Assembly (NCBI RefSeq): GCF_005405925.1
Contig: NZ_BJHV01000001.1
Span: forward strand, 4,588,001-4,652,000
Origin: Streptomyces antimycoticus
GTDB lineage: Bacteria > Actinomycetota > Actinomycetes > Streptomycetales > Streptomycetaceae
DNA: 64,000 nucleotides
Direction of reading: 5' to 3'
Shown here in pieces: positions 16,924 through 48,616 of the stretch. Position 1 is the stretch's first letter. Every line of letters starts with the position of its first letter. A program made the position numbers and the translations under genes. The notes under the pieces were generated by a model, which saw only the letters and a program-made list of their open reading frames with translations, was not told the DNA's origin and ran no database searches.

Positions 16924-16953
16924 CTACGCGCGTAGGCAGTTACCGGCTACCCT
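16924..16953 (+). promoter_or_regulatory. Nucleoside operator CTACGCGCGTAG and promoter of the pnp gene
   Basis: The perfect 12-bp palindrome CTACGCGCGTAG is at 16924-16935, about where the -35 would lie. The -10 TACCCT is at 16948-16953, and GTG follows after seven bases. The same palindrome occurs at deoC and the adenosine deaminase gene, and a degenerate copy at bmpA, so it probably binds a common repressor. Confidence 0.7.
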
Positions 16954-16960
16954 CGTGCGC

Positions 16961-17785
16961 GTGAACGCATCAGTTTCTTGGGACGACATCCAGGGCGACC
17001 CCCACGCCGCCGCCGACGACGCCGCCACCCGCCTGCGCGAGCTGACCGGTGCGGAGACCCACGACGTCGCGCTGGTCCTGGGCTCCGGCTGGGTCCCCGC
17101 CACCGACGCCCTCGGCGCGCCCGAGCACGAGTTCCCCGTCACCGAGCTGCCCGGCTTCCCGCCGCCCGCCGTCGAGGGCCATGCGGGCCGGATCCGCTCG
17201 TACCGGATCAACGACAAGCGGGCGCTGGTCTTCCTCGGCCGTACGCACTACTACGAGGGCCGCGGTGTCGCCGCCGTCGCACACGGCGTACGCACCGCCG
17301 TCGCCGCCGGCTGCAAGACCATCATCCTCACCAACGGCTGCGGCGGCCTCCGCGAGGGCATGCGCCCCGGCCAGCCGGTACTGATCAGCGACCACATCAA
17401 CCTCACGGCCACCTCCCCGATCGTGGGCGCGAACTTCGTCGACCTCACCGACCTGTACTCCCCGCGGCTGCGCGCCCTGTGCCAGCAGGTCGATCCGACC
17501 CTGGAGGAGGGCGTCTACGCCCAGTTCCCCGGGCCGCACTACGAGACCCCGGCGGAGATCACCATGGTCCGCACCCTGGGCGCCGACCTGGTGGGCATGT
17601 CCACCACCCTGGAGGCCATCGCGGCGCGCGAGGCGGGCGCGGAGGTCCTGGGCATCTCCCTGGTCACCAACCTGGCGGCCGGTATGACCGGCGAACCCCT
17701 CAACCACGAGGAGGTCCTCCAGGCCGGCCGCGACTCCGCCTCCCGCATGGGCAGCCTGCTGTCGCAGGTCCTCGACCGCATCTGA
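16961..17785 (+). CDS. Purine nucleoside phosphorylase (trimeric PNP family)
   Basis: A 274-residue enzyme splitting purine nucleosides with phosphate to base and (deoxy)ribose-1-P. Signatures seen: [10 protein letters not shown] (phosphate loop), [29 protein letters not shown] and [15 protein letters not shown] with the family Glu/Met positions, all of the PNP/MTAP low-molecular-mass class. GTG start at 16961 is set by the leaderless promoter and matches VNASVSWDD. It is the first enzyme of the nucleoside route completed by the phosphomutase and deoC downstream. Confidence 0.92.
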
Positions 17786-17879
17786 CCTCGCCGGCAGCGG
17801 CGTCACGGCGTGCTGCGCGGGTACTCACCCCTCAGCCAACTGAACAGAGCGTCGCGGCACCCTCTGCCGGGGCGCGGTG

Positions 17880-18795
17880 GGGTGCGTGGTGGGTGCCGGG
17901 GGCGGGGCCTCCGGTGCGGCGCCCTGGACCGCACATTTACGGCGCCGGTGCCCGGGAGCGTGAGGCGGGCCGGGGATTGGCGCCACACATATGCGAAAGC
18001 GTCCAGGACACCACCCCTCCGACCCCACCCCCTCCCGTCTCGTCGGCGGCCACCCGCCGGTGGCCCAGGGCGCCCGTCCGTTCCGCGTTCGGCCCGGGAG
18101 CTGGGTATTGGGTGGGGGTGGGTACGGCCCCGCCCTCCCGCGTCGCGGTGGCACGGACTCCGGCCCGGTTCCGGACCGCCCGGGGGTTCCGGTGCCAGGT
18201 GGAGGTGGGTACGACCCCGCCCGTCCCGTCTCAACTGAAACCGCGCCCCAGTGGGACAAGCCGCTTGTCCGCCTCCGGACCGCCCAGGAAAGGGGATGGC
18301 CCACCGTCCCGCCCCCGCCGCAGAGGCTGGAGGGGTGCTCACCCGAAGCGGGCCCGTGAGCGGATGCCAACAAGATGCCCACCCCAAAAGCCGAGAGCAC
18401 GGTCGTCCACGAGGCCAGAGGAGACGGGGCAGTATCCCCCCTCGCCCAGCCCTTCTGGCCACGCGGACACCGACGAGTGGGAGGGAGAGGCGCCGCACCC
18501 GGGCGATCCGGAACCGGACCGGGGCCTGTGCCACCGAGGCACCGGCAAGCGAGCGCGAGACGGGCCGCACCGAGCACCCTGGCGGTCCGGAACCGGGCCA
18601 GGACCGGAGGCCACCGGTGGGGAGCCGCCGACGAGACGGGAGGGGGCGGGGTCGCAGGGGTGGTGTCCTGGACGCTTACGTGTATTTGTGGCGCCAATCC
18701 CCGGGCCACTCAACGCCCCCGGCCAACGGCGCCGTAAATATACGGTCCAGGGCGCCGCCCCGGAGGCCCCGCACCCGCCACCCACCACGAACAGC
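17880..18795. repeat. Large imperfect inverted duplication in a 1.2-kb gene-free gap
   Basis: Arms of about 300 bp at 17880-18195 and 18495-18795 are inverted copies. The best-aligned part is 17907-18065 against the complement of 18609-18768, about 88% identical by eye, including shared GGATTGGCGCCACA and AAGCGTCCAGGACACCACCCC. The ~300-bp centre contains more copies of GGTTCCGGANCGCC. All frames are open because of GC content, but no start, ribosome site or family match supports a gene between pnp and the phosphomutase. Confidence 0.75.
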
Positions 18796-18818
18796 AGGCG
18801 CACCCCAGCAACCACCAC

Positions 18819-18951
18819 GCACCCGCACCCACACCCACACCCACAAGCCGCACCCGCACCCGCACCCACACCCACACCCACAAGCCGCACCCACAAGCCG
18901 CACCCGCACCCGCACCCGCACCCGCACCCGCACACAGCGGAACCCGCACCC
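18819..18951. repeat. CACCCG/CACACC microsatellite
   Basis: About 20 runs of a C-A-C-C-C-G/A hexamer interrupted by three copies of ACAAGCCG. It ends about 27 bp before the phosphomutase ATG, so it forms most of the leader. The complementary strand is G-rich with regularly spaced GGG. Confidence 0.8.
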
Positions 18952-18978
18952 ACCAAACGACCACCCCCAGGAGGCCCC

Positions 18979-20703: not shown

Positions 20704-20778
20704 TCGGTGCCGGTGACGGGCCGGTGACGGTGCCGGGTGCCGGGTGCCGGAGCCGGGTGCCGGAGCCGAGCCACGTCA

Positions 20779-21974: not shown

Positions 21975-22068
21975 GCGCCCGATTGTGCACCACACTCCGG
22001 GGGTGGGGGGCGGCCAGGGATCGCTCGCCCCGGCCCGCATGGAATCCGGGGCCGGGGGTGACATCCGA

Positions 22069-22087
22069 CTACGCGCGTAGATATGCT
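22069..22087 (+). promoter_or_regulatory. Nucleoside operator and leaderless promoter of deoC
   Basis: CTACGCGCGTAG at 22069-22080 is separated by one base from a TATGCT -10 at 22082-22087. Six bases later is the GTG start. A repressor bound here would cover the spacer of the promoter. Confidence 0.7.
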
Positions 22088-22093
22088 CGTCTG

Positions 22094-23095
22094 GTGACCA
22101 TGCCCACCACAGTTCCCGCATACGGCAAAGAGGCCGCGGAGCGACTCGCGTCGATGGCGGACGTGACCGCCGACGACCGCGCCCTGCGCCGCTTCCTGCA
22201 CGGCCTGCCGGGCGTCGACGCGGTCGGCCTGCAGGCCCGTGCCGCGACCCTCGGCACCCGCTCGATCAAGACCACGGCGAAGGCGTACGCCATCGACCTG
22301 GCGATCTCGATGATCGACCTGACGACCCTGGAGGGTGCCGACACCCCGGGCAAGGTCCGGTCCCTGTGCGCCAAGGGGATCAACCCCGATCCCACCGACC
22401 GCACCGTCCCCCAGGTCGCGGCCATCTGCGTCTACGGCGACATGGTGGCCACCGCCAAGGAGGCCCTGAAGGGCAGCGGCATTCACGTGGCAGCCGTCGC
22501 GACCGCCTTCCCCTCCGGCCGGGCCGCGCTGCCGGTCAAGCTGGCCGACACCCGGGACGCGGTGGCCGCCGGGGCGGACGAGATCGACATGGTGATCGAC
22601 CGCGGCGCCTTCCTCTCCGGCCGCTACCTCGAGGTCTTCGAGGAGATCCGGCAGGTGAAGGAGGCCTGCGTCCGCGAGGACGGCACCGCCGCCCACCTCA
22701 AGGTCATCTTCGAGACCGGTGAGCTGCAGACGTACGACAACGTCCGCCGCGCCTCCTGGCTGGCGATGCTCGCCGGCGCGGACTTCATCAAGACCTCCAC
22801 CGGCAAGGTGGCCGTCAACGCGACCCCGCCCGTCACCCTCGTCCTGCTGGAGGCGGTCCGCGACTTCCGCGCCGCGGTCGGCGTGCAGGTGGGCGTGAAG
22901 CCGGCGGGCGGCATCCGCACCTCCAAGGACGCGATCAAGTACCTGGTGATGGTCAACGAGACGCTGGGCGGCGAGTGGCTCTCCCCGGATTGGTTCCGCT
23001 TCGGCGCCTCCAGCCTCCTCAACGACCTGCTGATGCAGCGCCAGAAGCTGAGCACCGGCCGGTACTCCGGTCCCGACTACGTGACGGTGGACTGA
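22094..23095 (+). CDS. deoC: Deoxyribose-phosphate aldolase
   Basis: A 333-residue class I aldolase cleaving 2-deoxyribose-5-P to acetaldehyde and glyceraldehyde-3-P. The Schiff-base lysine is K233 in FIKTSTGKVAVNATP. The partner lysine is K269 in KPAGGIRTS, and the acid is in DEIDMV (about 162-165). GTG at 22094 fits a leaderless transcript. ATG two codons later is an alternative. The aldehyde dehydrogenase gene follows after six bases. Confidence 0.93.
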   Translation: MTMPTTVPAYGKEAAERLASMADVTADDRALRRFLHGLPGVDAVGLQARAATLGTRSIKTTAKAYAIDLAISMIDLTTLEGADTPGKVRSLCAKGINPDPTDRTVPQVAAICVYGDMVATAKEALKGSGIHVAAVATAFPSGRAALPVKLADTRDAVAAGADEIDMVIDRGAFLSGRYLEVFEEIRQVKEACVREDGTAAHLKVIFETGELQTYDNVRRASWLAMLAGADFIKTSTGKVAVNATPPVTLVLLEAVRDFRAAVGVQVGVKPAGGIRTSKDAIKYLVMVNETLGGEWLSPDWFRFGASSLLNDLLMQRQKLSTGRYSGPDYVTVD

Positions 23096-23101: not shown

Positions 23102-24586
23102 ATGCCCGTTTTCGAGTACGCACCGGCGCCGGAGTCCCGCGCGGTCGTCGACATCGCACCGTCCTACGGCCTGTTCATCGACGGGGAGTTCGGCGAGGCG
23201 GGCGACGGCAAGGTCTTCAAGACCCTCTCCCCCTCCTCCGAGGAGGTCCTCTCCGAGGTCGCCCAGGCCGGCGCCGAGGACGTGGACCGCGCCGTCAAGG
23301 CCGCCCGTAAGGCGTTCACGACCTGGTCCGCGCTCCCCGGCTCCGAGCGCGCCAAGTACCTCTTCCGCATCGCGCGCATCATCCAGGAGCGCTCCCGCGA
23401 ACTGGCCGTCCTGGAGTCGCTGGACAACGGCAAGCCGATCCGCGAGTCGCGCGACTCCGATCTGCCCCTGGTCGCGGCCCACTTCTTCTACTACGCGGGC
23501 TGGGCCGACAAGCTCGCGTACGCCGGCTACGGCACGGACCCGAAGCCCCTGGGCGTCGCCGGCCAGATCATCCCCTGGAACTTCCCGCTCCTGATGCTGG
23601 CCTGGAAGATCGCCCCGGCGCTCGCCACCGGCAATACGGTCGTCCTCAAGCCCGCCGAGACGACGCCCCTGAGCGCCCTCTTCTTCGCGGACATCTGCCG
23701 CCAGGCCGGGCTCCCCAAGGGCGTGGTCAACATCATCACCGGCGACGGCTCGACCGGCGCCGAGCTGGTCGCCCACCCCGGGATCGACAAGGTGGCCTTC
23801 ACCGGCTCCACCGAGGTCGGCAAGGCCATCGCCCGTACGGTGGCCGGTACGAGGAAGAAGGTCACCCTCGAACTCGGCGGCAAGGCCGCGAACATCGTCT
23901 TCGACGACGCCCCCATCGACCAGGCGGTCGAGGGCATCATCAGCGGCATCTTCTTCAACCAGGGCCATGTCTGCTGCGCGGGCTCCCGCCTCCTGGTCCA
24001 GGAGTCCGTCCAGGACGAGCTGCTCGACGCGCTCAAGCGCCGGATGGGCACCCTGCGGTTGGGCGATCCGCTGGACAAGAACACCGACATCGGCGCCATC
24101 AACTCCGCCGAGCAGCTGGCCCGGATCCGCGCGCTGGCCGACGCGGGCGAGGCCGAGGGCGCCGAGCGCTGGGCCCCGGCGTGCGAACTCCCCAGCTCCG
24201 GCTACTGGTTCGCGCCCACCCTCTTCACCGGCGTCACCCAGGCCCACCGGATCGCCCGCGAGGAGATCTTCGGCCCGGTGCTGTCGGTGCTCACCTTCCG
24301 CACCCCCGAAGAGGCCGTGGCCAAGGCCAACAACACGCCGTACGGACTGTCGGCGGGCATCTGGACGGAGAAGGGTTCGCGCATCCTGTGGATGGCGAAC
24401 AAGCTCCGGGCGGGCATCGTGTGGTCCAACACGTTCAACAAGTTCGACCCGGCCTCCCCGTTCGGCGGCTACAAGGAGTCGGGATACGGCCGCGAAGGCG
24501 GTCGTCACGGCCTGGAGGCATATCTCGCCGGAGCAGCCCAACCGACGAGCGAGCGCAGCGAGCGAGAAGGAGAGCGCGACCGATGA
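23102..24586 (+). CDS. Aldehyde dehydrogenase
   Basis: A 494-residue NAD(P)-dependent dehydrogenase with all key residues: oxyanion Asn in PWNFP (about 160), general-base Glu in LELGGKAAN (about 257) and catalytic Cys in GHVCCAGSR (291/292). Next to deoC it probably oxidises acetaldehyde released from deoxyribose-5-P to acetate. It starts with ATG six bases after deoC, and its TGA overlaps the ATG of the following gene (ATGA), so the two products are likely made in equal amounts. Confidence 0.9.
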   Translation: MPVFEYAPAPESRAVVDIAPSYGLFIDGEFGEAGDGKVFKTLSPSSEEVLSEVAQAGAEDVDRAVKAARKAFTTWSALPGSERAKYLFRIARIIQERSRELAVLESLDNGKPIRESRDSDLPLVAAHFFYYAGWADKLAYAGYGTDPKPLGVAGQIIPWNFPLLMLAWKIAPALATGNTVVLKPAETTPLSALFFADICRQAGLPKGVVNIITGDGSTGAELVAHPGIDKVAFTGSTEVGKAIARTVAGTRKKVTLELGGKAANIVFDDAPIDQAVEGIISGIFFNQGHVCCAGSRLLVQESVQDELLDALKRRMGTLRLGDPLDKNTDIGAINSAEQLARIRALADAGEAEGAERWAPACELPSSGYWFAPTLFTGVTQAHRIAREEIFGPVLSVLTFRTPEEAVAKANNTPYGLSAGIWTEKGSRILWMANKLRAGIVWSNTFNKFDPASPFGGYKESGYGREGGRHGLEAYLAGAAQPTSERSEREGERDR

Positions 24587-25450
24587 AGCAGCCTGACAAC
24601 CGGCTCTCCGTGCTGAAGACCTACAAGCTGTTCGTCGGGGCAAGTTCCCCCGGTCCGAGAGCGGGCGGGTGTACGAGGTGACCACAGCAAAGGGCCAGTG
24701 GCTCGCCAACGCCCCCCTGGCCTCCCGCAAGGACGCCCGGGACGCGGTCGTCGCCGCGCGCAAGGCGTTCGGCGGCTGGTCCGGGGCCACCGCGTACAAC
24801 CGGGGCCAGATCCTCTACCGCATCGCCGAGATGCTGGAGGGCCGCCGCGACCAGTTCATCCACGAGGTCGCCGACGCCGAGGGCCTGTCGAAGTCCAAGG
24901 CCACCGCCCAGGTCGACGCCGCGATCGACCGCTGGGTCTGGTACGCGGGCTGGTCGGACAAGACGGCCCAGATCGCCGGGTCCGCCAACCCCGTCGCCGG
25001 GCCGTACTTCAACCTCTCCTCCCCGAGCCGACCGGCGTGGTCACGCTCCTCGCGCCCCAGGACTCGTCCTTCCTCGGCCTGGTCTCCGTGATCGCCCCCG
25101 CGATCGCCACCGGCAATACGGCCGTGGTGGTGGCGAGCGAGAAGTCCCCGCTGCCCGCCCTCTCCCTGGCCGAGGTGCTGGCCACCTCCGACCTCCCGGG
25201 CGGCGTGGTCAACATCCTCTCCGGCCGCACCGCCGAGATCGCCGCCCCGCTCGCCGCGCACCAGGACGTCAACGCGATCGACCTCGCCGGCGCGGACCCG
25301 GAGCTCGCGGTCGAGCTGGAGAAGGCCAGTGCGGAGAACCTCAAGCGGGTCCTTCGTCCACAGCCTGTGGATTGGGCGGCCGACCCCGGCACCGGCCGTC
25401 TCCTCGGCTTCCTGGAGACCAAGACCGTCTGGCATCCGATGGGCGCCTAG
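24583..25450 (+). CDS. Half-length aldehyde dehydrogenase-like protein without catalytic Cys (frameshifted)
   Basis: After adding one G at the run 24637-24640 and one C at 25021-25024, this gives a ~288-residue protein. It matches the N-terminal/cofactor part of aldehyde dehydrogenases (FVGGKFPRSESG, AARKAFGGWSGATAYNRGQI, EPTGVVTLLAPQDSSFLGLV). It stops after an ETKTVWHPMGA tail and has no catalytic Cys segment. It overlaps the full-length dehydrogenase by four bases. Double-domain ALDH16 enzymes also carry a second, shorter, Cys-less domain, so this may be the split counterpart acting as a structural partner (inference). Confidence 0.8.
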
Positions 25451-25594: not shown

Positions 25595-26620
25595 ATGATC
25601 ATCGACTGCCATGGCCACTACACCACCGCGCCACCGGCGCTGGAGGCATGGCGCACCCAGCAGATCAACGGACTCACCGACCCCGCCAGCACCCCCTCCC
25701 GCGCCGATCTCCGCGTCAGTGACGACGAGCTGCGCCACAGCATCGAGCCGAACCAGCTCCGGCTGATGGACGAACGCGGCATCGACCTGACAGTCTTCTC
25801 GCCCCGGGCGTCCTTCATGGCCCACCACATCGGCGATCTCCACACCTCCGCCGAGTGGGCGGCCCTCTGCAACGAGCTCTGCTTCCGCGTCAGCGCGCTC
25901 TACCCGGAGCGCTTCGCCCCCGCCGCGATGCTTCCGCAGTCGCCGGGCGTCGACCCGGCCACCTGCGTGCCCGAGCTCGTCCGCTGCGTGGAGGAGTACG
26001 GGGCCGTGGCGGTCAACCTCAACCCCGATCCCTCGGGCGGCCACTGGACGGCCCCGCCGCTGACCGACCGCTCCTGGTACCCGATCTACGAAAAGCTGGT
26101 GGAGTACGACCTCCCCGCGATGGTGCATGTGAGCACCAGCGTCAACCCCGCCTTCCACACCACCGGGGCGCACTACCTCAACGCCGATACGACGGTGTTC
26201 ATGCAGCTGGTGCAGGGCGATCTGTTCGCCGACTTCCCCACCCTGCGCCTGATCATCCCGCATGGCGGCGGCGCCGTCCCGTATCACTGGGGCCGGTTCC
26301 GCGGCCTGGCGATGGCCCTCGGCAAGCCGCCCCTGGAGGAGCACGTCCTGGGCAATGTCTTCTTCGACACCTGCGTCTACCACCAGCCCGGCATCGATCT
26401 CCTCCTCGACGTCATCCCGGCCCGGAACATCCTCTTCGCCTCCGAGATGATCGGCGCCGTCCGCGATGTCGACCCCCGGACGGGCCGGCACTTCGACGAC
26501 ACCCGCCGCTACACCGAGGCCGCCGGGCTCTCGGCGGCCGATCTGACCGGCATCTACGAACATAACGCCCGTACCGTCTACCCTCGCCTGGACGCCCTGC
26601 TGACCAAGCAGGGCCGCTGA
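25595..26620 (+). CDS. Amidohydrolase, probable 4-oxalomesaconate hydratase (LigJ-like)
   Basis: A 341-residue metal-dependent amidohydrolase-family protein starting MIIDCHGHYTTAPPALEAWR, which is the start I associate with LigJ-type 4-oxalomesaconate hydratases. The metal-ligand HxH is DCHGHY, with further histidines in IPHGGGAVPYHWGRF. The reaction would hydrate the keto-acid formed from 2-pyrone-4,6-dicarboxylate. The next gene looks like the dicarboxylate lactonase, which supports this over a plain decarboxylase role. GAAGGAACCGCG precedes the ATG. A resorcylate-type decarboxylase is the alternative. Confidence 0.75.
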   Translation: MIIDCHGHYTTAPPALEAWRTQQINGLTDPASTPSRADLRVSDDELRHSIEPNQLRLMDERGIDLTVFSPRASFMAHHIGDLHTSAEWAALCNELCFRVSALYPERFAPAAMLPQSPGVDPATCVPELVRCVEEYGAVAVNLNPDPSGGHWTAPPLTDRSWYPIYEKLVEYDLPAMVHVSTSVNPAFHTTGAHYLNADTTVFMQLVQGDLFADFPTLRLIIPHGGGAVPYHWGRFRGLAMALGKPPLEEHVLGNVFFDTCVYHQPGIDLLLDVIPARNILFASEMIGAVRDVDPRTGRHFDDTRRYTEAAGLSAADLTGIYEHNARTVYPRLDALLTKQGR

Positions 26621-26658
26621 TGGCCACCGCCTGGTCCGCCGATCGCGATCACAGGTCC

Positions 26659-26745
26659 CCTGATGACGACCTCCGGTCCGCGATGACGACCGCAGGGTCC
26701 GCGATGACGACCGCACGGCCTACGAGGACGACCGCAGGGCCGCCC
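26659..26745. repeat. Four ~21-bp tandem repeats between two pathway genes
   Basis: Degenerate units of GATGACGACCGCAGGGTCCGC fill the 145-bp gap before the lactonase gene, whose AGAGGAG ribosome site follows. Confidence 0.7.
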
Positions 26746-26765
26746 ACTCGCCCAGAGGAGCCCTC

Positions 26766-27686
26766 ATGAGCACGCTCTCCCCCAAGACCCCCGGCTGGCT
26801 GGACTGGCACCCCGACCCGTCCCGGCCCGCCTTCGCCCTCCCGCCGGGCACCGTCGACACCCACTGCCACGTCTTCGGCCCGCAAGCCGCGTTCCCCTTC
26901 GCGCCCGAGCGCAAGTACACGCCCTGCGACGGCGGCAAGGACGACCTCTTCGCCCTCCGCGACCACCTCGGGGTCGCCCGCAATGTGATCGTCCAGGCGA
27001 CCTGTCACGGCGCGGACAACAGCGCCATGGTCGACGCCGTCCAGGCGTCCGGCGGCCGGGCGCGCGGTATCGCGACCGTACGCCCGGATGTCACCGACGC
27101 GGAGCTGCGCCGGCTGGACGCGGCGGGGGTGCGCGGGGTGCGCTTCACCTTTCTGCGGCGCCTGGCCGACGCCGCGCCCCAACACGATCTGGCCACCATC
27201 GCGCAGCGGATCGCCCCGCTCGGCTGGCATGTCGTCCTCTACTTCGAAAGCGCCGACCTGCCAGAGCTGGAACGTTTCTTCAGCTCCCTGCCCACCCCCC
27301 TCGTCGTGGACCACATGGGACGCCCCGATGTGACCGCACCGGCCACGGGACCCGACTTCACCCGCTTCCTGCGGTTCGCCGAACGCGACGAGGTGTGGGT
27401 GAAGGTCACCTGCCCCGAGCGCCTCAGCGTCACCGGGCCCCCGGCCCTGAACGCGGAGCGGCACCCGTACACCGACGTCGTGCCCTTCGCCCGCCGCGTG
27501 ATCGAGGAGTTCCCCGACCGGGTGCTGTGGGGCACGGACTGGCCGCATCCCAACCTCACCGGCCATATGCCCGACGACGGGCTGCTGGTCGACTACGTGC
27601 CCCAGGTGGCGGTCACCGCCGAGCAGCGGCGGAAGCTGCTGGTCGACAACCCCATGAGGCTCTACTGGCCCGGCGAAGGCGCCTGA
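26766..27686 (+). CDS. 2-pyrone-4,6-dicarboxylate lactonase (LigI-like)
   Basis: A 306-residue amidohydrolase. The N-terminal VDTHCHVFGP supplies the HxH motif. VVDHMGRPD and the C-terminal GTDWPHPNLTG (catalytic Asp region) are the signatures I associate with LigI. It opens the pyrone ring in the protocatechuate 4,5-cleavage (or gallate) lower pathway, giving the substrate of the preceding hydratase. It starts with ATG at 26766 behind AGAGGAG. No extradiol dioxygenase, LigC or aldolase is seen nearby. Confidence 0.8.
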   Translation: MSTLSPKTPGWLDWHPDPSRPAFALPPGTVDTHCHVFGPQAAFPFAPERKYTPCDGGKDDLFALRDHLGVARNVIVQATCHGADNSAMVDAVQASGGRARGIATVRPDVTDAELRRLDAAGVRGVRFTFLRRLADAAPQHDLATIAQRIAPLGWHVVLYFESADLPELERFFSSLPTPLVVDHMGRPDVTAPATGPDFTRFLRFAERDEVWVKVTCPERLSVTGPPALNAERHPYTDVVPFARRVIEEFPDRVLWGTDWPHPNLTGHMPDDGLLVDYVPQVAVTAEQRRKLLVDNPMRLYWPGEGA

Positions 27687-27774
27687 CCCCGAACCGCCCG
27701 CCGAGACCCGCCCCCGTCCCCTCCCCGCCTCTTCCTCTCCGCCCTCCTCCCCGCCTCTTCGACAAGGGCCACCC

Positions 27775-31401: not shown

Positions 31402-31500
31402 ATGCTCACTCGTACTCGCCCAATCACGCTCGTAGACGGTCCAGCAGCAGCTCCCTACGCCCTGACGGTCGAACTACAGGCCCCTTGTAGGCCAGAATGA
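31402..31500 (+). CDS. Possible leader ORF upstream of afsQ1 (32 aa)
   Basis: ATG at 31402 is preceded by AAGGGAG at good spacing. The ORF reads MLTRTRPITLVDGP... and ends at a TGA overlapping the afsQ1 ATG (ATGA). afsQ1 itself has only a weak ribosome site, so coupled translation is possible. No homology known to me, and chance cannot be excluded. Confidence 0.35.
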   Translation: MLTRTRPITLVDGPAAAPYALTVELQAPCRPE

Positions 31501-32180
31501 CCAACGTGCCTTTCCTGTTGCTGATCGAGGACGACGACGCCATCCGCACGGCCCTCGAACTCTCTCTGTCCCGCCAGGGCCACCGTGTGGCGACCGCGGC
31601 GACGGGCGAGGACGGCCTGAAACTGCTGCGTGAGCAGCGGCCGGATCTGATCGTGCTCGATGTGATGCTGCCCGGGATCGACGGCTTCGAGGTGTGCCGC
31701 CGGATCCGCCGTACCGACCAGTTGCCGATCATCCTGCTGACCGCGCGCAGCGATGACATCGACGTCGTCGTGGGCCTGGAGTCCGGCGCCGACGACTATG
31801 TGGTCAAACCCGTCCAGGGCCGGGTGCTGGACGCCCGGATCCGCGCGGTTCTGCGGCGTGGCGAGCGGGAGGCCAACGACTCCGCGGCCTTCGGCAGTCT
31901 GCTGATCGACCGCGCGGCCATGACGGTCACCAAGAACGGCGAGGATCTGCAGCTCACCCCCACCGAGCTGCGGCTTCTGCTGGAGCTCAGCCGCCGGCCG
32001 GGGCAGGCGCTGTCCCGGCAGCAGCTGCTGCGGCTGGTCTGGGAGCACGACTACCTCGGCGACTCACGGCTGGTCGACGCATGCGTACAGCGCCTGCGCG
32101 CGAAGGTGGAGGACGTCCCGTCGTCGCCGACGCTGATCCGTACGGTGCGCGGGGTCGGATACCGGCTGGACGCGCCATAG
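31497..32180 (+). CDS. afsQ1: Response regulator AfsQ1 (OmpR/PhoB family)
   Basis: The receiver domain has the acidic pocket EDDD at 11-14, phospho-acceptor D55 (LIVLDVMLPGIDG; D52 if counted from the GTG at codon 4, as in S. coelicolor) and K104-region KPVQ. The C-terminal winged helix ends RTVRGVGYRLDAP. It activates antibiotic genes and represses parts of nitrogen metabolism in response to nitrogen/amino-acid signals (known for S. coelicolor). ATG at 31497 or the GTG at codon 4 may be used. The gene ends in TAG overlapping a GTG that opens the 90-bp repeat array. Confidence 0.95.
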   Translation: MTNVPFLLLIEDDDAIRTALELSLSRQGHRVATAATGEDGLKLLREQRPDLIVLDVMLPGIDGFEVCRRIRRTDQLPIILLTARSDDIDVVVGLESGADDYVVKPVQGRVLDARIRAVLRRGEREANDSAAFGSLLIDRAAMTVTKNGEDLQLTPTELRLLLELSRRPGQALSRQQLLRLVWEHDYLGDSRLVDACVQRLRAKVEDVPSSPTLIRTVRGVGYRLDAP

Positions 32181-32540: not shown

Positions 32541-32592
32541 CGGGGACGATGCGTGGTGCGCGCGGGGGCGGAGACGTACGGAGTTGAGCGCA

Positions 32593-36276: not shown

Positions 36277-37442
36277 TCAGCTTCCCCCGGACGCGGAATC
36301 CCTGGTCACAGCCGACGCGGAGGCCACATTTCGGAACAGCCATTCGGACTTCAGCTCGGCGTATCCGGGCTTGATCACGTCACTGATCATCGCCAGACGT
36401 TCGTCAAAAGGAATGAAGGCCGATTTCATGGCATTGACCGTGAACCATTGCATGTCGTCGAGCGTGTAATGGAACGTTGATACAAGATGCTGGAATTCCG
36501 CGCTCATGCTCGTCCCGCTCATCAGACGATTATCCGTATTCACGGTGGCACGGAAATGCAGTCGGCGGAGCAGCCCGATGGGGTGCTCGGCGTACGAACT
36601 GGCCGCGCCCGTCTGGAGGTTGGAGGTCGGGCACAGCTCCAGCGGGATGCGCTTGTCGCGGACGTACGAGGCGAGGCGGCCGAGGGCGAGGGAGCCGTCG
36701 TCCGCGACCTTGATGTCGTCGATGATGCGGACGCCGTGGCCCAGCCGGTCGGCGCCGCACCACTGGAGCGCCTGCCAGATGGACGGCAGTCCGAACGCCT
36801 CGCCCGCGTGGATCGTGAAGTGGTTGTTCTCCCGCTTCAGATACTCGAAGGCGTCCAGGTGCCGGGTGGGCGGGAAACCGGCCTCGGCGCCCGCGATATC
36901 GAAACCGACCACGCCCAAGTCGCGGTAGCGGTTGGCGAGTTCGGCGATCTCCAGGGCGCGGGCCGCGTGCCGCATCGCGGTCAGCAGGGCGCCCACCCGG
37001 ATGCGGTGGCCGTTCTCCCGGGCCCGCCGCTCCCCTTCGCGGAAGCCCTCGTTGACCGCCTCGACGACCTCCTCCAGGGTCAGCCCGCCCTCGAGGTGCT
37101 GTTCGGGGCGTAGCGGATCTCGGCGTAGACGACGCCGTCCTCGGCGAGGTCCTCGGCGCATTCGGCGGCGACCCTGACGAGCGCGTCGCGGGTCTGCATC
37201 ACGCCGACGGTGTGGGAGAACGTCTCCAGATAGCGCTCCAGCGATCCGGAGTCCGCCGCCTCGCGGAACCAGACGCCCAGCTTGTCGGGCTCGTTCTCCG
37301 GCAGCGCCTCGTACCCCGTCTCCCTCGCGAGGTCGACGATCGTGCCGGGACGCAGCCCGCCGTCGAGGTGGTCGTGGAGCAGCACCTTGGGGGCGCGGCG
37401 GATCTGTTCGGGGGTGGGCTCGTGGCTGTGCTCGCTCGTCAT
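36277..37442 (-). CDS. add: Adenosine deaminase (frameshifted)
   Basis: The enzyme converts (deoxy)adenosine to (deoxy)inosine, feeding the PNP gene. The zinc ligands are H23/H25 (LLHDHLDGG), the catalytic loop is IHAGEAFG, and GHGVRI and NTDNR follow. Adding one base at 37105-37108 joins [13 protein letters not shown] to the rest, giving about 388 residues. ATG at 37440-37442 fits a leaderless promoter (TATGGT plus six bases) directly next to the CTACGCGCGTAG operator. Confidence 0.92.
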
Positions 37443-37448: not shown

Positions 37449-37470
37449 ACCATAGCCCCTACGCGCGTAG
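37449..37470 (-). promoter_or_regulatory. Nucleoside operator and leaderless promoter of the adenosine deaminase gene
   Basis: On the minus strand CTACGCGCGTAG (37470-37459), four bases, the -10 TATGGT (37454-37449), six bases, ATG. It is arranged almost as at deoC. Confidence 0.7.
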
Positions 37471-41526: not shown

Positions 41527-42804
41527 TCAGGCGATGCGTTCCAGCACGATCGGCGTGGGGATGAAGTCCGCGTTCTGGGGGGCGTAGGTGACCGCTTCCT
41601 TCAGTGCCTCCAGGGCGTAGGCGAAGGCCGACGGGGTGTCGGTGTGGAGGGTGAGGAGCGGCTGGCCCGTGGTGACGCGGTCGCCCGGTTTGGCGTGGAG
41701 TTCGACGCCCGCGCCCGCCTGGACCGGGTCCTCCTTACGGGCGCGGCCCGCCCCCAGGCGCCAGGCGGCCAGGCCGACCGCGTAGGCGTCGAGGCGGGTG
41801 AGGACGCCGTCGGCGGTGGCCGTGACGACGTGGTGTTCGCGCGCCGCGGGGAGCGGGGCGTCCGGGTCGCCGCCCTGGGCGGCGATCATGCGGCGCCAGT
41901 GGTCCATCGCCGTGCCGTCGGCCAGGGCCTTGGCGGGGTCGGCGTCCGGCAGGCCCGCCGCGTCCAGCATTTCGCGGGCCAGGGCCAGGGTGAGCTCGAC
42001 GACATCGGCGGGGCCGCCGCCCGCCAGGACCTCCACGGACTCGCGGACCTCGAGGGCGTTGCCCGCGGTGAGGCCGAGCGGGGTGGACATGTCGGTGAGG
42101 AGGGCGGTCGTGCGGACGCCGTGGTCCTTGCCGAGGCCGACCATCGTGGTGGCCAGTTCGCGCGCCGAGTCGATGTCCTTCATGAAGGCGCCGGAGCCGA
42201 CCTTGACGTCCAGGACCAGGGAGCCGGTGCCCTCGGCGATCTTCTTGGACATGATCGAGGAGGCGATGAGCGGGATCGACTCGACCGTCCCGGTGACATC
42301 GCGCAGCGCGTACAGCTTCTTGTCGGCCGGGGCCAGGCCCTCGCCCGCCGCGCAGATGACCGGGCCCACGTCGCGGAGGACGGCCAGCATGTCCTCGTTG
42401 GACAGCTGTGCGCGCCAGCCGGGGATGGACTCCAGCTTGTCGAGGGTGCCGCCGGTGTGGCCGAGGCCCCGGCCGGAGAGCTGCGGTACGGCGGCTCCGC
42501 AGGCCGCCACGAGGGGGGCGAGCGGCAGGGTGATCTTGTCGCCGACGCCGCCGGTGGAGTGCTTGTCGGCGGTCGGGCGCGGCAGGGAGGAGAAGTCCAT
42601 CCGCTCGCCGGAGGCGATCATCGCGGCGGTCCAGCGGGCGATCTCGGCCCGGTCCATGCCGTTGAGGAAGATCGCCATCGCGAGTGCGGACATCTGCTCG
42701 TCCGCCACCTCGCCGCGCGTGTAGGCGTCGATGACCCAGTCGATCTGGGCGTCGGTCAGGCGGGTGCCGTCGCGCTTGGCGCGGATGACGGAGATGGCGT
42801 CCAT
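41527..42804 (-). CDS. deoA: Thymidine phosphorylase
   Basis: A 425-residue pyrimidine nucleoside phosphorylase splitting (deoxy)thymidine/uridine to base and (deoxy)ribose-1-P. The family signature [20 protein letters not shown], the phosphate-site [17 protein letters not shown] and the conserved [10 protein letters not shown] are intact. It is the last gene of the bmpA importer operon, 34 bp after the cytidine deaminase. Its deoxyribose-1-P product enters the mutase-DeoC route. Confidence 0.93.
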
Positions 42805-42838: not shown

Positions 42839-43251
42839 TCAGCCGTGGGCGGCGGCGCGGCGCAGATCGGCGGGGCCGAAGGCGTCCGGGAGGAGCTCGG
42901 CGAGCGGGCGGATGCCCGTGAGGGTGTCCATCTGGAGCTCGGGGCCGCCGTGCTCCCACAGCAGCTGACGGCAGCGGCCGCAGGGCATCAGCACGGCGCC
43001 CTCGCGGTCGCAGCAGGTGAAGGCGGTGAGCCGGCCGCCGCCGGTGGCGACGAGGGAGGAGATCAGACCGCATTCGGCGCACAGCGCGACGCCGTACGCC
43101 GCGTTCTCCACATTGCAGCCGCTGACCGTGCGGCCGTCGTCGACGAGCGCGGCGGCGCCCACCGGGAAGTCCGAGTAGGGGGCGTAGGCCCGGGACATGG
43201 CGTCCCGGGCCTGTGCGCGCAAACCGTCCCAGTCGGGGCGGAAGTGCTCAT
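42839..43251 (-). CDS. cdd: Cytidine deaminase (frameshifted)
   Basis: A zinc enzyme deaminating (deoxy)cytidine. NVENAAYG, the catalytic CAE in ALCAECGLI and the second zinc pair MPCGRCRQLL are present. The natural start is ATG at 43251, overlapping the upstream permease stop (ATGA), but the frame is lost at 43235-43238. A fifth base there gives MSTSAPDWDGLRAQARDAMS. Length after correction is about 137 residues. Without it only a TTG at 43222 is in frame. Confidence 0.9.
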
Positions 43252-44543
43252 GTGCCCTGTCCCTTTCGATAGGGCCTGTTGTTCGCCTTGGGCATCCGCA
43301 GCCGCTGTGAGGCGAGCCCCATGACCAGCAGGGTCACGATGTACGGCGTGGCGCTGACCAGGCCGCCTGGGACCGTGTCGGTCAGGGCATACCACAGCAG
43401 CAGCGCGACGGCCGCGGCGCCGGACACCGCGCCCGCGACATAACTCTTGCGGACAATCCGCCAGACCGCCAGCGCGGCGAGGCCGAGTGCGACCAGGAGC
43501 AGCAGGGCGTGGACGGTCGCCCCGCCGTTGCGCAGTTGCAGGGCGTCGGAGTAGCCGAAGAGACCGGCGCCCATCGCGAGCCCGCCCGGCCGCCAGTTGC
43601 CGAAGAGCATGGCGGCGAGGCCGATGTAGCCGCGGCCGCCGGTCTGGCCCTCGTTGTAGATGTGCGAGCGGACGAGGGCGAGGAAGACGCCGCCGAGCCC
43701 GGCGAGGGCGCCGGAGATCACCACGGCCGCGTACTTGTAGAGGTAGACGTTGACGCCGAGGGACTCGGCCGCCGTCGGGTTCTCACCGCAGGACCGCAGC
43801 CGCAGTCCGAACGAGGTCCGCCACAGGGCGAAGAAGCTGCCCACGACCAGGAGGATGGAGACGACGGTCAGCGCGGAGATGTCGGTGACCAGACCGCCGA
43901 GGATGCCGGCGACGTCCGAGACCAGGAACCAGTGGTGGTTCTCCAGATCCGCGAGCCAGTCGGACAGTCCGGGGACGGTGAACGTCTGGATGGGGTCGAC
44001 CTGCGGGGAGTTCTTCGGGGAGCCGCCGATGTCGGACAGCGGCTCGAACCAGCGCTTGGCCAGATAGGTGGTGGCGCCGAGGGCGAGGATGTTCATCGCC
44101 ACACCGGAGATGATGTGGTCCACCCCGAAGGTGACGGTGGCCACCGCGTGGACCAGACCGCCGACCGCGCCGCCGAGGACGCCCGCGAGTACGCCCACCC
44201 AGGGGTTGGTCTGATAGCCCGCCCAGGCGCCGAAGAAGGTGCCGAGGATCATCATGCCCTCGAGGCCGATGTTGACCACACCGGCCCGCTCGGACCACAG
44301 TCCGCCGAGGCCCGCGAGGCCGATCGGCACGGCCATGGAGAGCGCGGCGGCGATCTGCCCGGAGGAGGTGACGCGGTCGAAGTCCGACTGCTGGGCGGCG
44401 TCGACGAACGCCCGCAGCACCGACAGCGCGACCAGCGCCCCGGCGACGATCAGCAGCACCTTGCCCAGGGACATCCGGGAGGCGGGCCCGTTCCCCTTGC
44501 CCGGCGTGCTCGTGCTCTTGGTGGTGGTCACCGTGGCACTCAT
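43248..44543 (-). CDS. Nucleoside ABC transporter permease (YufQ/NupQ type)
   Basis: A 431-residue, ~10-helix permease of the branched-chain-type superfamily, with the signature LAGLGGLWSERAGVVNIGLEG typical of BmpA-linked nucleoside importers. It pairs with the permease upstream and the ATPase to import nucleosides. A 112-bp gap without a gene separates it from the first permease. That gap holds a segment similar to 53797-53832. It overlaps cdd by ATGA. Confidence 0.9.
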   Translation of the reverse strand: MSATVTTTKSTSTPGKGNGPASRMSLGKVLLIVAGALVALSVLRAFVDAAQQSDFDRVTSSGQIAAALSMAVPIGLAGLGGLWSERAGVVNIGLEGMMILGTFFGAWAGYQTNPWVGVLAGVLGGAVGGLVHAVATVTFGVDHIISGVAMNILALGATTYLAKRWFEPLSDIGGSPKNSPQVDPIQTFTVPGLSDWLADLENHHWFLVSDVAGILGGLVTDISALTVVSILLVVGSFFALWRTSFGLRLRSCGENPTAAESLGVNVYLYKYAAVVISGALAGLGGVFLALVRSHIYNEGQTGGRGYIGLAAMLFGNWRPGGLAMGAGLFGYSDALQLRNGGATVHALLLLVALGLAALAVWRIVRKSYVAGAVSGAAAVALLLWYALTDTVPGGLVSATPYIVTLLVMGLASQRLRMPKANNRPYRKGQGT

Positions 44544-44655
44544 CGTGTCTCTCCGTTCGCCCCGCCGCGGCAGCGGCCGATGTCACTGTCGCCCACTCGG
44601 CACGAAGGCCCGGCCATCGTCGTCATCTGCGGCCCGGAGGCCCCGTGTGCGTCGC

Positions 44656-45786
44656 TCACGGCACCGCCACCTCCGTCTTGTCGATGCCCTTGTCGGCCCT
44701 GGCCTGGGCGGCGAGCTCCGCGCCGACCCTCTGCTGCTGGCGCTTGAGCCCGTAGCGGCGCACCAGTTCGTACGCGATGACGACACACAGGACGATCACG
44801 CCCTGCATCACGCCGACGATTTCCTTGTCGTAGCCCTCGAACTCCAGGCGGTTGGCGCCGCGCTCCAGGAAGCCCCACAGCACGGCGGCCAGCGCGATGC
44901 CGACCGGGTTGTTGCGGCCGAGCAGCGCGATGGCGATACCGGTGAAGCCGATGCCGGTCGGGAAGTCGGAGGTGAACTGGTGGGTGTCGTTGAGCAGGGT
45001 CGGCATGCCGATCAGACCGGCCATCGCGCCCGAGAGCACCATGCTGGTGAGCACCATGCGCTTGACGTTGACGCCGCTGGCCTGGGCGGCGGACTCGGAG
45101 CGGCCCACCGCGCGCAGGTCGAAGCCGAACCGGGTGCGCCCGAGCAGGAACCAGAAGCCGACGCCGGCGAGCGCCGCGACGACGATGAAGCCCCAGATGG
45201 GGTCGAGGTCGCCGCCCGCCGGGAAGGTGAAGAAGTGGCTGGAGGACGGCAGCGGGTCGGTGGCCACGATGTTGGTCTGCTTGTCGAGGTCGGCCAGCCG
45301 CCCGTCCACCAGCAGATAGCTGATGAGGATGCCGGAGAGGGAGTTCAGCATGATGGTGCTGATCACCTCGCTGACGCCCCGGTAGACCTTCAGCAGACCG
45401 GCGATGGATGCCCACATGGCGCCGACGAGCATGGCGACCAGGAGGATCAGCGGGATCTGCACCAGCCCCGGCAGCTCCAGTGCCCCGCCGACGACGGCGG
45501 CGAAGAAGGCGGCGAGCCGGTACTGGCCGTCGACGCCGATGTTGAAGAGGTTCATCCGGAAGCCGATGGCCACCGCGAGCCCCGCCAGGTAGTACGTCGT
45601 CGCCTTGTTGAGGATGTAGACCTGGCTGTCGGCCTTCACCCCGTAGTCGAACATGATGCCGAAGGCGTTGAACGGCTCCTTGCCGGTCGCCAGCAGCACC
45701 AGCGCGGTCACCACGAACGCGGCGGCGAGCGCCAGCACCGGGGCGGCGACCGCGAGCAGCACCCGCTCCTTGTCCAGCTTCTTCAT
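44656..45786 (-). CDS. Nucleoside ABC transporter permease (YufP/NupP type)
   Basis: A 376-residue permease with about ten helices. FRMNLFNIGVDGQYRLAAF and AVGRSESAAQASGVNVKR are typical of the first permease of this importer class. ATG at 45786 overlaps the stop expected for the ATPase gene (ATGA), pointing to coupled translation. Confidence 0.9.
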   Translation of the reverse strand: MKKLDKERVLLAVAAPVLALAAAFVVTALVLLATGKEPFNAFGIMFDYGVKADSQVYILNKATTYYLAGLAVAIGFRMNLFNIGVDGQYRLAAFFAAVVGGALELPGLVQIPLILLVAMLVGAMWASIAGLLKVYRGVSEVISTIMLNSLSGILISYLLVDGRLADLDKQTNIVATDPLPSSSHFFTFPAGGDLDPIWGFIVVAALAGVGFWFLLGRTRFGFDLRAVGRSESAAQASGVNVKRMVLTSMVLSGAMAGLIGMPTLLNDTHQFTSDFPTGIGFTGIAIALLGRNNPVGIALAAVLWGFLERGANRLEFEGYDKEIVGVMQGVIVLCVVIAYELVRRYGLKRQQQRVGAELAAQARADKGIDKTEVAVP

Positions 45787-47395
45787 CGGGCCTCTCCCCG
45801 GTCGCGGCCTCGGCCTCGTCGGCCGGGTGGTCCAGACGGCCGGAGGCGGCGCCGGTCATGGCCGAGCCCAGCTCCTCCGGGGTGATGGTGGCGGGGTCGG
45901 CGTCGGCGACCAGCCGGCCGCGGAACATCACCCGCAGGGTGTCGGACAGGCCGATCAGCTCGTCCAGGTCGGCCGAGATCAGCAGCACCGCGAGGCCCTC
46001 ACGGCGCGCGGTGCGGATCTGGTCCCAGATCTGCGCCTGGGCGCCCACGTCCACACCCCGGGTGGGGTGCGCGGCGATCAGCAGCTTGGGGTGGTGGCTC
46101 ATCTCCCGGCCGACGATCAGCTTCTGCTGGTTGCCGCCGGACAGCGAGGCCGCGGTGACCTCGATCCCGGGCGTACGCACGTCGTACTCGGCGACGATCC
46201 GCTCGGTGTCCCGCCGGGCGGCGGCCGGATTGAGCAGCCCGCCCTTGCTGTTGGGCACCTCGGTGACATGGCCGAGGATGCGGTTCTCCCACAGCGGCGC
46301 CTCCAGCAGCAGTCCGTGCCGGTGGCGGTCCTCGGGGATGTAGCCGATGCCGTCCTCGCGCCGCTTGCGGGTGGGCGCGTGGGAGATGTCGGCGCCGTCC
46401 AGGGTGATGGTGCCGGCGTCGGGGTCGCGCATGCCCATGATGGCCTCGACCAGTTCGGCCTGGCCGTTGCCCTCCACACCGGCGATGCCGAGGACTTCGC
46501 CCTTACGGATGGTGAAGGCGATGTCGTCGAGCACGGCCCGCTCCACCCCGTCCACATCGGTGGCGGTCAGCCGCAGCGCGTCCACGACGAGCATGTCGGT
46601 GTCGGTGACGGTGGATTCGCGGGTCTCCGGCGAGGGCAGCTCGCTGCCGACCATCAGCTCGGCCAGCTGCCGGGGGCTGGTCTCGGACGGCGCGACGGAG
46701 GCGACCGTGGTGCCGCGGCGGATGACGGTGATGTCATCGGCCACGGAGAGCACCTCGCCCAGCTTGTGCGAGATGAACAGCACCGTCAGGCCCTCGGACT
46801 TGAGCTCGCGGAGGTTGTCGAAGAGCGCGTCGACCTCCTGCGGGACGAGGACGGCGGTCGGCTCGTCGAGGATGAGCGTCCGGGCGCCCCGGTAGAGGAC
46901 CTTGAGGATCTCCACGCGCTGACGGTCCGCCACGCCCAGGTCCTCGACGAGGAAGTCGGGACGGACGCCCAGCCCGTAGGCGTCGGATATCTCCTTGATC
47001 CGGGCGCGCGCCTTGCCGCTGATGCCGTGCAGCTTCTCCGCGCCGAGGACCACGTTCTCCAGCACGGTGAGGTTGTCGGCGAGCATGAAGTGCTGGTGCA
47101 CCATGCCCACTCCGCGGGATATGGCGTCCGCCGGGGAGCTCAGTTCCACCGTCTCGCCGTCGATCGCGATGGTGCCCTCGTCCGGGCGCTGCATCCCGTA
47201 GAGGATCTTCATCAGGGTCGACTTGCCCGCGCCGTTCTCGCCCACGAGGGCGTGCACGGTGCCGCGGCGCACAGTGATGTCGATGTCGTGGTTGGCGACG
47301 ACTCCGGGGAACCGCTTGGTGATTCCGTGGAGTTCTACGGCGACGTCGGTGACGGCACCGGCGGGAGCGCCCTTGGGTGGGCTGGCGGCTTCGAT
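45783..47395 (-). CDS. Nucleoside ABC transporter ATPase, two-domain (frameshifted at the 3' end)
   Basis: Two ABC domains. The first has Walker A GENGAGKST, signature VADRQRVEI and Walker B LILDEPTAVL. The second has a degenerate P-loop GVEGNGQAE, signature LSGGNQQKLI and IAAHPTRGVD. A fifth base in the run 45796-45799 creates the stop at 45783-45785, overlapping the permease ATG. Otherwise the frame reads falsely through the permease. Homology extends upstream of the first GTG (47272): VELHGITKRFPGVVANHDI. The only position with good AGGAG spacing is ATC at 47395, so the start is a non-standard codon or a sequence error. Confidence 0.85.
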
Positions 47396-47454
47396 GGCGC
47401 ACTCCTGAGGGGCGACGGAGGTGGGGCGGGCCGGGGGCCGGACCGGCCGGGTGT

Positions 47455-47505
47455 GCCACGGACCCGGGCGGACGCCCGGGAGGGGGCGCCGTACGGGTCC
47501 GTGGC
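47455..47505 (-). terminator. Intercistronic hairpin between bmpA and the ATPase gene
   Basis: 12-bp arms (GCCACGGACCCG at 47455-47466, complement at 47494-47505) enclose a second GC-rich stem. Eight bases after the bmpA stop, it could attenuate or protect the transcript so that the binding protein is made in excess over the membrane parts. Confidence 0.7.
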
Positions 47506-47512
47506 CCGAGGG

Positions 47513-48547
47513 TCAGTCCTTGTAGGTGTCGTTGACCTTGATCTGGCCGTCGACGATCTTCTTCTTGGCCGCCTCGATCTTCGGCTTGATGTCGTTGATG
47601 AATCCGCCGGAGTACGAGAGGGAGACGCCGCCGCGCTTGAGGTCGTAGGACTGGACGCCGCTCTCGGGCTTCTTGTCCTTGATGACGCTCTTGATGAAGT
47701 CGTAGACCGAGCCGTCCACGGTCTTGACCATGGAGGTCATGATCGAGTTCTTGTACTGGGCCAGGCCCTTGTCGTAGTACTGGTCGCCGTCGACGCCGAT
47801 CGACCAGGTGCCCTTCTTCCCGGCGGTCGCCTCGATGGCGCCCGCGCCGGAGCCGCCGGCCGCGGAGAAGATCACGTCGACCTTGTTGGAGAGCATGCCC
47901 TCGGCGATGTCCTTGCCGCGGTCCGGCATGCCGAAGCCCTTGGGCGAACCGACCTGCACCCACTGGACGTCCAGGGACGCCTTGGGGTTGGTGTCCTTCA
48001 GACCCTGCTGGAAGCCGCCCGCGAACTTCTTGATCAGCGCGCTGTCGGTGCCGCCGATGAAGCCGACCTTGTTGGACTTGGTCTTCAGGCCCGCGGCCAC
48101 GCCGGCGAGGTAGGAGCCCTCGTGCTCGGCGGAGACCAGGCTGGCCACGTTCTTGGCCTCGACGACCGAGTCGACGATGGCGAAGTCGGTGTCCTTGTAC
48201 TTCTTCGCGGCCTTGGTGAGCGAGGGGGTCCACGCGTAGCCGACGCCGACGACGGGGTTGTAGCCCGCCTCGGCGAGGCTCGCCAGCTTGTCGTAGCGGT
48301 CGGCGTCGGTGTCGCCGTCCTTCGCCGTCAGCTCCTTGCCCTTGACGTCGAAGTCCTTCAGGGCCTTGTCATAGCCCTTGGCGGCGGAGTCGTTGAAGGA
48401 GTGGTCGCCACGGCCGCCGACGTCGTAGGCCAGGCCGATGCCGGCGTCCTTGCTTCCCTCTTCGGAGCTGCTGCCACACGCGGTGACGGAAAATGCGAGA
48501 GCCGCGGTGGCAATGCCCGCGACAGCTATCGTGGATACCCGGCGCAC
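47513..48547 (-). CDS. bmpA: BmpA-family nucleoside-binding lipoprotein
   Basis: A 344-residue protein with a lipoprotein signal peptide ending FSVTAC (Cys24). The BMP domain is clear: GIGLAYDVGGRGDHSFNDSA, ADRYDKLASLAEAGYNPVVG, SAEHEGSYLAGVAAGL, and VIFSAAGGSGAGAIEA. It captures nucleosides for the ABC importer that follows. It starts with GTG at 48547 behind AGAGGGG. First gene of a six-gene operon (bmpA-ATPase-permease-permease-cdd-deoA). Confidence 0.92.
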   Translation of the reverse strand: MRRVSTIAVAGIATAALAFSVTACGSSSEEGSKDAGIGLAYDVGGRGDHSFNDSAAKGYDKALKDFDVKGKELTAKDGDTDADRYDKLASLAEAGYNPVVGVGYAWTPSLTKAAKKYKDTDFAIVDSVVEAKNVASLVSAEHEGSYLAGVAAGLKTKSNKVGFIGGTDSALIKKFAGGFQQGLKDTNPKASLDVQWVQVGSPKGFGMPDRGKDIAEGMLSNKVDVIFSAAGGSGAGAIEATAGKKGTWSIGVDGDQYYDKGLAQYKNSIMTSMVKTVDGSVYDFIKSVIKDKKPESGVQSYDLKRGGVSLSYSGGFINDIKPKIEAAKKKIVDGQIKVNDTYKD

Positions 48548-48600
48548 GAGGGTCCCCTCTGATGATCTCGAAGCGCCCCTTGCGGCGCTGGCTCCGCCGC

Positions 48601-48616
48601 ATCGTAACGCGCGTAG
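48601..48616 (-). promoter_or_regulatory. Degenerate nucleoside operator and -10 of the bmpA operon
   Basis: On the minus strand CTACGCGCGTTA (48616-48605) is followed by and overlaps TACGAT (48606-48601), a plausible -10. Ten of 12 operator bases match the perfect palindrome at pnp, deoC and the deaminase gene. A 5' untranslated region of about 50 nt would follow. Confidence 0.55.

Follow-up and report, generated by a model that had tools for sequence, protein, structure and literature searches.

A 12-bp palindrome conserved across Streptomycetaceae is the predicted operator of a nucleic-acid and nucleoside scavenging regulon

We analyzed a 64-kb stretch of the Streptomyces antimycoticus genome (contig NZ_BJHV01000001.1; hereafter the window), which carries genes for a purine nucleoside phosphorylase (pnp), a deoxyribose-phosphate aldolase (deoC), an adenosine deaminase (add), and a cluster composed of an ATP-binding cassette (ABC) nucleoside importer with its substrate-binding lipoprotein (bmpA), a cytidine deaminase (cdd), and a pyrimidine/thymidine phosphorylase (deoA) (Table 1). 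A window scan revealed that one palindrome, CTACGCGCGTAG, occurs exactly before pnp, deoC, and add, and that a copy matching at 10 of 12 positions, TAACGCGCGTAG, lies before bmpA, where it reads CTACGCGCGTTA on the gene strand. These positions and promoter contexts were those given by an earlier note on this DNA, which had proposed a single operator for the four promoters and had seen no other exact copy in the window; the whole genome of 11,174,199 bases indeed has just these three exact copies, all in the window within a span of 20.6 kb, and lacks the reversed word. Comparison with relatives leads us to regard CTACGCGCGTAG as very probably the operator of one nucleic-acid and nucleoside scavenging regulon in the family Streptomycetaceae (a family name inferred from the Streptomyces titles of the pnp loci described below).

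All four sites lie near promoter boxes, which were assigned by eye. The distance from operator to start codon is 19 bp for pnp, 13 bp for deoC, 16 bp for add, and 57 bp for bmpA, and the add promoter has a -10-like hexamer TATGGT at 37454-37449. At deoC the order operator, A, TATGCT is kept in relatives. deoC and add look leaderless, as pnp probably is.

Table 1. Operators and genes of the nucleoside locus (positions in the window)
Feature	Coordinates	Strand	Remarks
DeoR-family regulator, candidate only	13678..14694	-	Pfam HTH_DeoR, DeoRC
Operator, exact, before pnp	16924..16935		overlaps -35 zone, 12 bp ahead of -10-like TACCCT (16948-16953)
pnp, purine nucleoside phosphorylase	16955..17785	+	Pfam PNP_UDP_1; GTG at 16955, or at 16961 as called in some relatives
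deoC promoter	22059..22087	+	by eye: -35 TGACAT 22059-22064, 17-bp spacer, -10 TATGCT 22082-22087
Operator, exact, filling the deoC promoter spacer	22069..22080		window scan
deoC, deoxyribose-phosphate aldolase	22094..23095	+	Pfam DeoC
aldh1, aldehyde dehydrogenase, 6 bp past deoC	23102..24586	+	gene call; relatives 74-87% identical also follow deoC
add, adenosine deaminase	36277..37442	-	Pfam A_deaminase in two frames; frame break ~37080-37161 in the assembly
Operator, exact, before add	37459..37470		add on - strand
deoA, pyrimidine/thymidine phosphorylase	41527..42804	-	Pfam Glycos_transf_3, PYNP_C
cdd, cytidine deaminase	42839..43198	-	NCBIfam PRK05578
Nucleoside ABC importer, second permease	43248..44543	-	Pfam BPD_transp_2
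Nucleoside ABC importer, first permease	44656..45786	-	Pfam BPD_transp_2
Nucleoside ABC importer, ATP-binding subunit	45783..47272	-	ABC_tran, ABC ATPase models; relatives 70-89% identical; ends not fixed, gene start somewhat upstream of 47272
bmpA, importer substrate-binding lipoprotein	47513..48547	-	Pfam Bmp
Operator, 10/12 copy, before bmpA	48605..48616		overlaps -10-like TACGAT (48606-48601)

Taken within this genome, the palindrome could be a chance or compositional word, given the GC-rich DNA and the absence of overall enrichment within one or two mismatches. The window holds five matches within two mismatches, including one further match at 32094, versus 3.73 expected, and at least five were reached in 35 of 100 shuffles; the 10/12 copy is therefore not significant by itself. 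With one mismatch allowed, the genome gives 19 matches and the reversed word 52; there is thus no genome-wide enrichment of loose matches either. The looser pattern CTANNCGCGTAG leaves five places in the genome (pnp, deoC, add, the purine synthesis gene purS, and one intragenic), and the reversed pattern gave 27 and 21 strand matches; about 220 kb of S. antimycoticus DNA outside the window yielded two places within two mismatches, namely the purS site and one intragenic.

The picture is different across relatives, for which we sampled 61 genomes of the genus, 150 of the family, and 222 of the class outside the family. Exact CTACGCGCGTAG is present in all 61 genus genomes (229 copies versus 37 of the reversed word) and in 149 of the 150 family genomes (542 versus 63), with at least two copies in 140 of the latter, and it is found in 10 of the 222 genomes outside the family; the sites read in seven of those ten (L079-L085; L and G numbers are our handles for loci and genomes) do not adjoin any of the query genes. 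Reversed words served as controls for genome counts, shuffles for the window, and 119 composition-matched palindromes for the promoter sets. The reversed-word counts and the control palindromes, together with the pnp loci described below, led us to reject a chance word, for which we see next to no probability.

Conservation at individual promoters was read in loci selected by protein rather than by site for pnp, deoC, purS, a secreted nuclease, a cyclic-nucleotide phosphodiesterase, and a secreted 5'-nucleotidase. The exact site was found at the pnp promoter in 80 of 80 loci, these being the best 80 of 576 Pnp relatives, all of them near relatives titled Streptomyces, and at the deoC promoter in all 57 of those loci that include deoC (55 if the scan stops at the aligned start). 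In distant members of the family that have few exact copies, sites with one mismatch remain at pnp, at deoC, or at both promoters (L173-L176), and the exceptional family genome, G312, has CTACTCGCGTAG at deoC. Paired operators were seen at one deoC promoter (L278, 3065/3135, 70 bp apart). The bmpA loci and the loci of the importer ATPase gene came from fetches by exact site. The bmpA set comprised 32 loci, of which one was cut and 31 were readable (L067 and L318 are one and the same place), and the identical 12 letters CTACGCGCGTTA were found in 30 of these 31. Many relatives have a fourth exact site, which lies not at bmpA but before the next gene downstream, that of the ABC ATPase; it is exact in 31 of 31 relatives, a figure biased by the retrieval of these loci, and of the bmpA loci along with them, through an exact site. 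S. antimycoticus itself has no site before its importer ATPase gene (best match, 5 mismatches).

We then assigned 112 exact sites from loci L001-L105 to genes. Twenty-eight lie at pnp, 22 at add, 21 at deoC, 21 at the importer ATPase gene, and 4 at a second add gene, so that 96 of 112 stand at genes of this kind. The palindrome is conserved in relatives at the promoters named in the earlier note and, among the exact sites read, stands mostly at such genes, so that the refuting condition set in that note did not come true. Of the 16 sites left unassigned, seven come from genomes outside the family and two from contig ends, where they occupy the pnp or importer position; the remaining seven comprise a secreted 5'-nucleotidase (L087), purS (L098), HAD phosphatases twice (L039, L086), and three with no clear partner, one of them intragenic. 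The second add gene, with 62% identity to add in the cases measured, has the exact operator inside its first codons (L027, L059, L062, L097, L270, L273, L275, L276), where it is therefore preserved as coding sequence too. A secreted protein of unknown function has an exact operator 38-59 bp before its start in six loci (L260, L262, L264, L266, L277, L280); it shows a weak GldG-like match, with Ig/CBM-like domains in some.

The link between nucleoside uptake and breakdown promoters proposed in the earlier note held, and the regulon appears larger, taking in a secreted nuclease, nucleotidases, purSQL, and perhaps a pyrimidine-base operon. Upstream of purS-purQ-purL (30 hand-chosen family genomes, 150 bp scanned), a match within two mismatches was found in 30 of 30 genomes and within one in 25, compared with control means of 0.17 and 0.02, respectively, for the 119 palindromes; in five more distant genomes (L205, L210, L211, L214, L215) the match lies in a different sequence context. 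A secreted 5'-nucleotidase has a site within one mismatch in 26 of 27 orthologues (63-100% identical) in a scan of both strands, while a gene-anchored scan reached 19 of the 27, 17 of them within one mismatch. For a Tat-type 2',3'-cyclic-nucleotide phosphodiesterase/nucleotidase (16 loci taken from 28 weak matches in other genomes, with the gene present in 15), all 15 loci matched within two mismatches and 13 within one; two of its loci (L447, L448) hold two adjacent copies about 13-14 bp apart. A secreted Exo_endo_phos nuclease, whose S. antimycoticus copy of the site is TGACGCGCGTAG, matched within two mismatches in all 25 loci that were anchored by script (12 within one; control mean, 0.48 within two), and the other 4 of the 29 loci also have matches in a separate reading. 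Two operators 43 bp apart were seen at one nuclease locus (L411, 2489/2532). Exact sites were also found at purN-purH in all four genomes read of one genus (g108), which were selected for having 5-6 copies. As single cases, S. antimycoticus has CTACGTGCGTAG 21 bp ahead of a pyrimidine-base operon (by eye from translations, a beta-ureidopropionase-like protein, an aminotransferase, a dihydropyrimidinase-like protein, and an NCS1-like permease), and L317 has CTATGCGCGTAG 49 bp ahead of deoA. Otherwise, deoA and cdd are covered only as downstream genes of the importer cluster.

Several observations weigh against one regulon of this extent. Besides the selection bias of the importer ATPase loci, no site within one mismatch was found at pnp of G312, and the bmpA site is missing in one relative (L064). 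Among the exact sites read outside the cluster in genomes with 5-6 copies, seven lack a fitting partner (L265, L268, L269, L271, L272, L274, L281), two of them being intragenic. The pattern CTANNCGCGTAG does not clearly outnumber its reversal in G057 or G314, and in G000 it is the rarer of the two. One 5'-nucleotidase orthologue (L230) and three paralogues have no site, nor does the purN promoter of S. antimycoticus (best match, 5 mismatches). The deoA site is present in one of three relatives read, that locus having been fetched by site, and the promoters of the other two showed nothing.

The placement of the palindrome bears on its mode of action. Relative to the -10-like box (by eye), it lies in the -35 zone at pnp and purS, in the spacer at deoC and the 5'-nucleotidase gene, on the -10 at bmpA, past the -10 at the nuclease gene, and within the first codons of the second add gene; no flanking position exceeds 54% agreement when pnp, deoC, add, and importer ATPase sites are weighted equally. 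As is usual for repressor operators, the palindrome stands at several promoters of related function, is kept in relatives, and overlaps polymerase contacts to a variable degree. Such a movable, strictly palindromic 12-mer over polymerase contacts, with no common flank, fits a dimeric repressor. Its nearness to promoters or start codons at the targets would also suit an activator site or a promoter element, yet either would hardly tolerate positions ranging from the -35 zone to the inside of a gene, and we consider this unlikely. With a repressor, a dimer would bind the 12-bp operator inside ordinary promoters and block RNA polymerase. On its release the secreted nuclease and nucleotidases would be made; nucleosides would then be imported by the bmpA ABC importer and cleaved by the products of add, cdd, deoA, and pnp, and deoxyribose phosphate would be converted to acetaldehyde and glyceraldehyde-3-phosphate via deoC and aldehyde dehydrogenase.

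The purSQL site in 30 of 30 genomes and the purNH sites in four genomes of one genus point to a purine or nucleoside signal. One dedicated repressor might run the route from extracellular DNA and RNA to central carbon metabolism throughout the family and couple it to de novo purine synthesis via purSQL, acting as a single switch for recycling the nucleic acids of dying mycelium; we hold the chances for and against this wider proposal to be about even. It counts against the regulon as proposed here that placing the synthesis of purines and the breakdown of nucleosides under repression by one signal would not be a simple arrangement.

The earlier note had named the DeoR-type gene of the window as a candidate regulator. 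In this reading, the DeoR protein would free the operator in response to deoxyribose-5-phosphate or another sugar phosphate. An orthologue (71-100% identical) is present in all 28 family genomes searched and so co-occurs with the operator, the gene adjoins lpd and pnp in all 12 deoR-centred family loci and is present in 76 of the 80 named pnp loci, and a 44-residue stretch of the helix-turn-helix (HTH) DNA-binding domain is identical in 28 of 28. The protein also carries a DeoRC sensor domain (Pfam), the eight outgroup loci that carry a homologue all lack pnp and deoC, and its clade limits equal those of the operator in these samples. An operator at its own promoter, a common though not obligatory trait of such regulons, did not appear: the best matches have 3-5 mismatches in 28 family loci, and within the window neither deoR nor lpd has a match at up to two mismatches. 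The outgroup homologues (six with 54-68% and two with 45-48% identity) lie away from pnp and deoC, in loci without a site within one mismatch (L166-L171, L177, L178); two of them, with nearly the same recognition helix, adjoin ytfQRT-like sugar ABC genes and GATCG/TTCG repeats (by eye), again without a site within one mismatch. In addition, the protein scores below every equivalog cut-off listed (73.1 bits versus a cut-off of 244 for the E. coli DeoR model, NCBIfam PRK10681), and DeoR-family sites, with TGTTNG half-sites, differ in look from this palindrome. We regard the linked DeoR protein as a possible regulator, though less likely than not. The deoR promoter itself, about 100 bp upstream, is strongly conserved and probably leaderless in L136-L163, with blocks GAACAA.TTC, GCAA.c.gCTGAAA, and GTTAC.gTC.

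We incline somewhat toward a different, unlinked factor, for example of the LacI, GntR, or TetR type and possibly purine-sensing like E. coli PurR. The purSQL and purNH sites would fit a purine signal, the central CG step is that of LacI-type operators, and the only regulators recurring in the window and the clusters of two relatives (by eye) are deoR, an AfsQ1/AfsQ2-like pair, and a LysR gene. LacI-type factors are also numerous in Streptomycetaceae, at about 32 per genome according to an excerpt of PMC4052901. Against this, no candidate gene was found among the sites read: no operator recurs at a regulator promoter among the exact and near-exact sites, a LuxR-type gene (L269) appearing once. 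Outgroup deoC promoters (deoC in 22 of 32 genomes) showed no comparable palindrome by eye. Among neighbouring regulators, the TetR gene beside deoR was rejected, with no match in 20 loci examined, as were the AfsQ1/AfsQ2-like pair and the LysR gene, whose typical sites do not fit.

The predicted operator is of a familiar kind; what stands out is how wide its range of targets is and how nearly universal it is in the family. In the E. coli DeoR/CytR regulon, palindromes of the repressor type likewise stand at genes for nucleoside uptake and deo catabolism, and as in that type one operator is found here at deoC, a phosphorylase (pnp), a deaminase (add), and a nucleoside importer, whereas the operator sequence is unrelated and a secreted nuclease, nucleotidases, and purSQL are included as well. 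Bacillus subtilis DeoR (SorC type), acting on dra-nupC-pdp, shares the functions deoC, nucleoside uptake, and nucleoside phosphorylase, but belongs to another regulator family with another operator and a single operon. E. coli PurR (LacI family) also uses a palindromic operator, includes pur genes (here purS, and purN-purH in g108 but not in S. antimycoticus), and serves many promoters with one regulator (excerpts of PMC10912719 and PMC4052901), while most targets here are catabolic; the PMC4052901 excerpt reports orthologues of PurR from no more than three orders of Gammaproteobacteria. NupR (GntR/HutC) of Bacillus thuringiensis is a further nucleoside transport regulator in an excerpt of PMC9430930; it is from a Firmicute, and we saw no link to this operator.

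SCO numbers were assigned to genes of the window from their function and arrangement, in part on general knowledge, and we take the window DeoR protein to be the SCO4920 orthologue. In excerpts of the respective papers, SCO4920 is tabled as a DeoR-family regulator in work on carbon catabolite regulation (PMC4848846) and forms the centre of an inferred expression module (PMC3224704). Likewise, the adenosine deaminase SCO4901 and nucleases are described as more abundant in strain SC than in SL and tied to nucleic-acid degradation after lysis (PMC7244524), and an argR mutant is reported to show changes in the deoxyribose-phosphate aldolase SCO4914 and in SCO2015, a secreted nucleotidase (PMC3293853). 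The extracellular 5'-nucleotidase SCO4152 is part of the Streptomyces PhoP regulon, which answers a separate phosphate signal (excerpt of PMC7866108); assuming that SCO4152 is the orthologue discussed above, the operator would be an additional element at its promoter. As the earlier note had surmised, we found no assignment of the CTACGCGCGTAG site or of its regulator in the open-licence PMC literature, where the literal word turned up, among the matches listed, in two papers with unrelated topics (DNA structures and GapR). If the prediction is true, Streptomyces would thereby have its first defined cis-element for the scavenging of nucleic acids, as far as that literature shows. In this genus, mycelial lysis and nutrient recycling go with sporulation and antibiotic production. 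The 12-bp site makes the regulator directly findable, predicts targets genome by genome, and would yield nucleoside-responsive promoters.

Some further features of the window were noted. The add gene is split over two frames here versus a gene of 385-387 amino acids in three relatives read, which indicates either an assembly error or a recent break. Downstream of deoC-aldh1, a second aldehyde dehydrogenase (24669-25450, +) is also split, its two frames jointly spanning about half of the Pfam profile, and is followed by amidohydrolase-like and MFS-like genes (25595-29127), perhaps an insertion. Between deoC and add lies the two-component pair (31497-34260, +), which is present in G007 (L063) too and which, by position, we take to match AfsQ1/AfsQ2 (SCO4907/4906).

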